A stretch of DNA of 64,000 nt from Muricea muricata. Taxonomy: Eukaryota; Cnidaria; Anthozoa; Malacalcyonacea; Plexauridae. Shown piece by piece: positions 41,201 to 51,085 of the stretch. Location: assembly GCA_963855995.1 (NCBI GenBank), contig OY979716.1, forward strand, positions 21,355,321 through 21,419,320, in the 5' to 3' direction. Below the pieces are notes generated by a model. The model was not told the DNA's origin. It searched no databases and saw only the letters and a program-made list of their open reading frames with translations. Position 1 is the stretch's first letter. The number at the start of each line of letters is the position of its first letter. The translations under genes and the position numbers were made by a program.

Positions 41201-44200
41201 GTGATCTACCTTTAATCAACAGCAAGCTCACTGTTATAAACTGGCTAGTCAATCAGAGTTGCAAAAAAGCCACGAGAATGCGGGCGCTGTCCGTGAGAAA
41301 GGTTGGCAAAATGTGCGGTCAGTATGGAAGATTTTATGTCAAAGACTACATAATGGTCTATCAGAAATCATGCCTTCTTTTGAGGAAGTTAGTGATCAAG
41401 CTTCATTCTCATATTCAGCAGTTTGGAAAGCCCAACTTTACAACATTTTGAGGAAGGCTTGCAAACTTTGAAAATTTTATTTTTGCATATGCCGTGTGAA
41501 TTGTATAGGAAATTACACGGTTCGAGAAGTATTAATGAAAAATCGCACGCGTGTTTGGCGAAATGTTTATAATACGCACGAGCGGTATTATAAATATTTC
41601 GCCAAACACAAGTGAGATTTTTTCATTAATACTTCGAGAACAAGTGTAATTTCCTATTAATATCATTTTACTACACATTTCAATGCTGAACTTAACTGTT
41701 TTCGTGAATGAAGTGCTGTCGACGATATGTTTCGCAAACTTTGGCAATAAATACTTTCAGGTTTGCCATTTTCTCTTCAAACAATCCTTTTCTAACACAA
41801 GTATTCATCCATCGAAAGTTTTTTAACCACTTTGTGAACATTTTTGTCAAAAAAACTGCTGATTTTTTGAATATTTCAAAATAAAAACACAAAAATGTTG
41901 ACAAATTTTATCACAAAAACATTTTACTACATGACGTATAGCTCGTTTCCGTGCAGATTAATTTTTAATCGGCACAATGCGCCGATTAAGGATTAATCGG
42001 CACACTTTTTAACCAATCAGAATCGAGTAAACTAAAAAAATGATATTACATTATACAATGACTAACTCTTGGCGTGATTTTCAGTATAGTGGGTGAAAAA
42101 AGTCAATATGTACGATGCGTTTTATAGTTATGCGTGGTGAATGTGTACCAAAATGTACATGTATGTACATGTATGTACATGCATTCATACAAAATTATGC
42201 AGGCAAAAAATTCAACACCGTGGAGGGGGGGGGGGGGCAGATGTGCTGAGATTTGTATTTTTTAGCTGGTTTGTTTAAATTCCCATCGGCGGGCAGGCAA
42301 AAGCGATCAAATCAGAGCAAATTCTAATCTGCAATTATAAAAGCTCAACTTTGTAACATTTTGAGGAAGGTTTGCAAACTTTGAGAACTTTATTCGGCGC
42401 AAGGTTAAAGTGCACCTAACCCCAAATTTTTTTTTTAATGAAATCTGATAGATTGTGATTTTAGAAGATTTTTGGCGAAAAAATTTTTCCATTTGGATAA
42501 ATACTCTGGCCGCTAGCCCAGAGAAAGTGCTTCCTTATTTGGTTCACAGCCGCGTCATGTAGGAGATTGGGGAGAGCAATTCTGTGACGTAAATTCCGGA
42601 CAGAGCATCGAGTGCATGTCAGCGATTATAAGTCATAAGGTCACGCTGTCGAAGTTGTATAAGCTCCAAATATCAGTTGTTCGTAAATAAATCGTGAAAT
42701 GTCTTTAAGTGCTTGTGATTCCGAGTCTTCCTACAATTCTGATGGGTCAGAACTAAAGGATTATTCCGACTACGAGGGTGAAATCGAACCATCATCCGAA
42801 GATGAAGTTTCAAACAGAAACACAACAAATTCAAGTCCTGATTGGAGCGATCAGGAAGGCGCTTTGTGCGCTGATGATCCTGTTGCAGACGCGGAATGGA
42901 CTGCCCAGTATGAAAAGGTGATGCAGGAAATCAGAGACGAGGAAAAAAGAATGAAAGATCGACTTGATGGGGTTATAGAACTGGATGAATGGTATGGACA
43001 TTTATACTTTTATAATATGAGGATTGATTGCATTTTTATGTTTTGTATACACTAAATAGTAACTACGAAACGTTTTCACAGGTGCCAGTGTGGAAATTGT
43101 AGTTTAGAGTTGTTACAAAATGCATCTGAGTGTAACTGTTGTCGTGAGCTACAAGCCTGTACTGATACAATGGAGATGGAAGAAGTTTTGCAAGATTATC
43201 CTCCTGGTACCAAACTTACATGTGTAACGGAACACCCAGGATTTGACACAGTCTGTCTTCAGAAATGGAGCCTAAAGCAGGGTGCATGGAAATACAAAAC
43301 AAAAAGCAACAGACGATACAAACAGATCAAATCTGAAGAAAGGTAATTTGCTGATATGTATTTTTTTTGTCGACTTGTGATGTCTATTAAACTGCCATAA
43401 AATTAGGCTACAATTGATTGAAGGTTAACAACCAATAGCATGTCCACTATTTATCAATATTCACCATTAAGACATTGAAGTAATCCAAGCATACTAATAG
43501 TATGCTTGGATTACTTCAATGTCTTAATGGTGCATATTGATGAATAGTGGACATGCTATTGGTTGTTAACCTTCAATCAATTCTAGCCTAATTGTATGGC
43601 AGTTTAATATTGTTTAAGCTTTTGATTGCCTTAGCAGCCTAACTTTGTGTTTTTGTAGATATTTCCGTAGTGTGTCATACAGAGAATTTTCTCGCATGGT
43701 GTATGGTGTGCTAGGAACAAAAAGAATACCATTGCCAGCCTGTGTTTATCATGCAATCAGGAAACAATTCCCATTAAGCAAGGATGAACAGTATACAGGA
43801 TTTGAATCTGATGAAAAGGAAAGCTAATTTTTTTACTGAAAGACCATCATAGCATTTATATTTACAACTTTTTATGTACATCTTTACAATCCACTTCAGG
43901 CCTGTTTATATGACCCCACTCAGCCAGGACAAAATAAGAGCTAGGATCATTTTGATGTATTGAAATAAGTCACCAGGCTTAAAATGTTTGCTAGAAATCT
44001 CGTAGTTAAACAAAATTACTGTTGCTGCTTTAACATCCTTGGAAAAATAGTAATGTTTTCCTGAATCATGAAGTGTGACTTATTTAAATACATCAAAATG
44101 ATATCATCCCAGCTAAGTGGGATCACATAAACAGGGCCTAACTCTGTCTATTATGCTAATAGAATATCATTGTTACTTGTCAGGTATGTATTGCATAAAC

Positions 44201-51085: not shown

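Follow-up and report, generated by a model that had tools for sequence, protein, structure and literature searches.

The window, a stretch of 64,000 nucleotides from Muricea muricata (contig OY979716.1, positions 21,355,321 to 21,419,320, forward strand), contains an element at window positions 42409-50249 that very probably represents a Kol0-type Kolobok DNA transposon. One strand of it would encode a DDE transposase with a THAP domain, and the other the accessory protein KolX. The association of such an element with the P2X7 ballast domain is genuine and remarkable, but it has already been published, and the copy is an ordinary member of the known Kol0 lineage.

The published account is that of Kojima and Bao (2022; PMC9587614). 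Kolobok transposons of the Kol0 lineage are described there as encoding a second protein, KolX, which has the P2X7 ballast fold and in which seven conserved cysteines surround two zinc ions; the lineage is reported from cnidarians among other animals, nanor is regarded as a likely domesticated KolX, and P2X7 is proposed to have arisen through fusion of a P2X4-like gene and KolX. The sequence-only reading of this DNA had supposed the link between Kolobok and the P2X7 C-terminal domain to be unreported; this part of it falls, as the same link and the same conclusion on the origin of the domain stand in that paper. Kolobok elements are characterized there by TTAA duplications, 5'-RR and YY-3' ends and a C/DxxH signature, and Kol0 by two proteins; Kolobok-1_XT is given as the Kol0 type element, and the superfamily is credited to Kapitonov and Jurka (2007). 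THAP, DDE, and H2CH are named as the usual motifs of Kolobok transposases in a further paper (PMC6004289).

The element is delimited by the following features (window coordinates).

42405-42408, no strand: left TTAA target-site duplication, read from the sequence.
42409-42497, plus strand: left terminal inverted repeat, starting with AG (5'-RR).
50162-50249, minus strand: right terminal inverted repeat, terminating in CT (YY-3').
50250-50253, no strand: right TTAA target-site duplication, read from the sequence.

The two terminal repeats (left 89 bases, right 88) agree in 86 of the 89 columns of their alignment, with two mismatches and one gap, and TTAA flanks the element on each side, as had been claimed from the sequence for near-identical repeats of 88 bp. 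The 19-base string TTAAAGTGCACCTAACCCC, made up of TTAA and the first 15 bases of the element, occurs twice in the window when up to three mismatches are allowed, both times at the ends; 0.03 matches are expected by chance, and none of 100 shuffles gave two. The ends are not due to chance. Both the 4-bp TTAA duplication and the termini AG ... CT, of the form 5'-RR ... YY-3', are features of the Kolobok superfamily.

Two convergent genes lie within these ends, as the earlier reading had it: a KolX-like gene on the plus strand and a THAP transposase gene on the minus strand. The KolX-like exons form a manual model, predicted from the sequence alone.

42699-42991, plus strand: KolX-like gene, exon 1, with donor GTATGG.
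43082-43342, plus strand: KolX-like gene, exon 2, with six cysteines aligning with P2X7 (WCQCGNC...CC...C).
43659-43827, plus strand: KolX-like gene, exon 3, with the LPAC...IRKQFP...QYTGF block containing the seventh aligned cysteine, followed by the stop.

The introns are of the GT-AG type (90 and 316 bases), and the product of 240 amino acids reads without internal stop. Against Pfam it matches P2RX7_C (PF20478; 6.8e-09, 36.3 bits, cut-off 23.5), the sole family found at E up to 1; the three exons, the length and this match bear out the claim of an intact, spliced gene for the P2X7 C-terminal domain and supply the second protein with a ballast domain that marks the Kol0 lineage. A search of solved structures (E up to 0.1) returned four distinct sequences, all of them P2X7 and all weak (E 0.0097 to 0.037); single stretches of the best P2X7 chain were weaker still (i-Evalues 1.4 and 63). 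Two printed P2X7 alignments pair the WCQCGNC, CC, and C positions as well as the LPxC...IRK.FP...QY.GF block, seven cysteines in total, which we infer to be the conserved seven of Kojima and Bao. The homology with the P2X7 ballast domain is seen in the Pfam match and in these aligned positions; unlike P2X7, the KolX-like product has no channel part and would be a free protein encoded inside a transposon.

Proteins with the same zinc-cysteine domain (ZCD) as KolX are also known as stand-alone, nanor-like proteins, mostly short and without membrane region, which Rump et al. (2020; PMC7016195) take as the animals' own genes; the Kolobok link was pointed out later by Kojima and Bao. The main text of PMC7016195 contains no term beginning with transpos, mobile, or horizontal; one tick protein is said there to have a 'TAHP' domain, where THAP may have been meant. 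The same source gives only one or a few (<10) genes with the P2X7-C domain per species, a low number for an active family that counts against the Kol0 reading, as does the absence of the word THAP from the KolX paper. Short proteins of this kind, standing alone in many animals and few per species, would also suit the view that a host nanor-like gene was caught by chance in one Kolobok copy, or that the ends merely surround an older host gene, and the present analysis is based on a single copy. This is nevertheless very unlikely, as KolX is reported as the second Kol0 protein and the stand-alone proteins are described by Kojima and Bao as previously unrecognized parts of Kolobok families.

The second gene of the presumed Kol0 element, its transposase gene, was likewise modeled manually, its pieces being joined by hand.

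45000-49968, minus strand: transposase gene, 11 exon pieces.
49612-49968, minus strand: THAP domain exon, matching PF05485 (scanned stretch 49591-49974).
48272-48626, minus strand: Mutator-like transposase exon, matching PF20700 (scanned stretch 48209-48649).
46435-48018, minus strand: transposase core exons, with GDGRHDS, SDRH, CENH, and LEGFHS in this order.

The THAP domain, the DNA-binding domain usual in Kolobok transposases, stands at the start of the gene (PF05485; 6.2e-13, 49.8 bits, cut-off 23.9); it upholds the THAP transposase of the earlier reading, and putative DDE-type motifs follow in the downstream exons. Exon 48272-48626 by itself matches the Mutator-like transposase family PF20700 above the cut-off (8e-07, 28.8 bits, cut-off 26.5). 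The putative acidic residues of the core are the D of GDGRHDS (47919-47917), the D of SDRH (47329-47327), and the E of LEGFHS (46508-46506); CENH, at 46964-46953 between the second D and the E, was read as the C/DxxH motif. These motifs were picked by eye and by their order; the order D, D, CENH, E would suit a putative DDE core bearing the C/DxxH signature of Kolobok. Further C and H residues (KCAHG ... HERLC) sit between CENH and the E of LEGFHS, where Kolobok transposases have a zinc finger, and may belong to such a finger. Pfam matched the joined transposase reading in the THAP part and at residues 308-393 only; at these residues PF20700 (24.4 bits, cut-off 26.5) and DUF4411 (15 bits) both remained below their cut-offs; the region of the D, D, E motifs had no Pfam match. 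The very probable placement in Kol0 is based on the KolX partner and the motifs. The TTAA duplications, the RR/YY ends, the putative DDE-type motifs with their C/DxxH, and the second protein with a ballast domain make up the likeness to Kol0; no difference of kind from Kol0 was found, the present copy having many introns and nested foldback repeats. The earlier description of the element as Kolobok-type, with the P2X7 C-terminal domain encoded by its second gene, is correct as to the biology.

A piggyBac-type transposon would also generate TTAA duplications, the target site found here being compatible with it, and piggyBac families with a KolX-like part are reported in PMC9587614. The same paper separates Kolobok from piggyBac by the 5'-RR/YY-3' ends, present here as AG...CT, and most of the seven cysteines are missing from the piggyBac proteins it reports, whereas seven align with P2X7 here; the minus-strand gene, moreover, opens with a THAP domain and has one exon matching a Mutator-like transposase. 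Pfam gave no piggyBac family for nine minus-strand pieces (E up to 1; one piece in a frame outside the gene model), nor for the joined transposase reading (E up to 0.1); the transposase domain of the piggyBac superfamily was found in neither. Assignment to piggyBac is so improbable that it hardly enters into consideration. In a separate search for relatives in viral contigs, two stretches matched a pattern and neither was confirmed, in a collection that is unlikely to hold animal transposons and may omit records near the genome of the window.

Whether the transposase of the Kol0-type element is intact depends on the exon bounds. In the preferred model, the SDRH exon continues through HYFDL and then meets an in-frame TAG at 47260-47258; the related transposases presumably have a tryptophan at this position. 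None of 18 combinations of hand-picked exon bounds read beyond 650 amino acids. Around the core, 252 exon models combined every AG acceptor and every GT donor within three short stretches with either of two second-exon starts; 18 of them kept the core motifs and the C-terminus all in frame, and each of the 16 listed (18 in all) used the acceptor at 47421. At least one stop was present in 12 of these 18 models; the 10 listed among the 12 have one stop each, with the exon ending at 47245 and the donor after the TAG. The other six are stop-free (769 to 779 residues); in them the exon already ends at 47294, ahead of the TAG, and they use weak-looking acceptors without a clear pyrimidine tract. The gene is somewhat more likely to be damaged than intact. 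The element had been called complete from the sequence, which holds for the ends and the P2X7-C gene and may not hold for the transposase. A highly improbable reading is that the KolX gene is kept intact in its own right as the transposase decays; the locus would then be an invertebrate case of KolX at an early stage of domestication, in parallel with nanor and P2X7.

Several repeats are nested within the Kol0-type copy.

43385-43609, no strand: near-perfect palindrome (foldback) in KolX intron 2, with arms of 112 nt, 96% complementary and 1 nt apart; likely a nested insertion.
43901-44135, between the two genes: short inverted-repeat unit with ends of 29 nt, 83% complementary.
45768-46273, in a transposase intron: two related foldback repeats beginning with CAGGGCCGT, 82% alike over 79 bases, with foldbacks at about 45777-45931 and about 46102-46273.

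The foldback repeats in the introns and the inverted-repeat unit between the genes suggest that the element has some age. Outside the element, a stop-to-stop frame of 754 amino acids on the minus strand (51133-53397) was noted, which by eye looks like a Penelope-type retroelement; it gave two sub-cut-off Pfam matches of other kinds only and no match among solved structures. A piece resembling the end of this frame lies at 29997-30287 on the plus strand, and long simple repeats, reading YIYIYI in several frames, lie at about 30434-31044 and 50711-51098.

Furin/kexin-like exon pieces, matched to solved structures, occur on both sides of the element.

50340-50477, minus strand: furin/kexin-like exon piece, upstream.
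39061-39330, minus strand: furin/kexin-like exon piece, downstream.
38562-38930, minus strand: furin/kexin-like exon piece, downstream.
37417-37689, minus strand: furin/kexin-like exon piece, downstream.

The four pieces, trimmed and joined with spacers, matched furin best (4.6e-44), followed by kexin (1.9e-38), among solved structures; the best furin stretch of this match spans the three downstream pieces (chain residues 83-236). For the upstream piece by itself, furin (1.4e-05, chain residues 15-60) came slightly behind another serine protease (1.3e-05); about 20 furin residues between it and the downstream stretch are unaccounted for. In Pfam searches with single pieces, one of the four passed the Peptidase_S8 cut-off, two matched below it, and one had no match. 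With the upstream piece on one side of it and the other three pieces on the other, the transposon probably sits in an intron of one furin-like gene.

Within this explanation, the ends, the duplications, the two gene models, and the domain matches are what the sequence shows. The transposase would recognize the ends of the element with its THAP domain and use DDE chemistry to transfer the element to TTAA sites. KolX carries the zinc-binding ballast domain known from the C-terminus of vertebrate P2X7, and might, as a guess, act as a zinc-stabilized DNA- or protein-binding partner of the transposase, aiding excision or end synapsis. The present copy would have inserted into the apparent intron of the furin-like gene, and its own transposase may since have stopped working.

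With the tail of P2X7 linked to Kolobok transposons, a receptor domain is proposed to derive from a mobile element, a striking case that was published in 2022 (PMC9587614). To this account the window contributes one copy that fits it, with a three-exon KolX-like gene, seven cysteines aligned with P2X7, and well-preserved ends.
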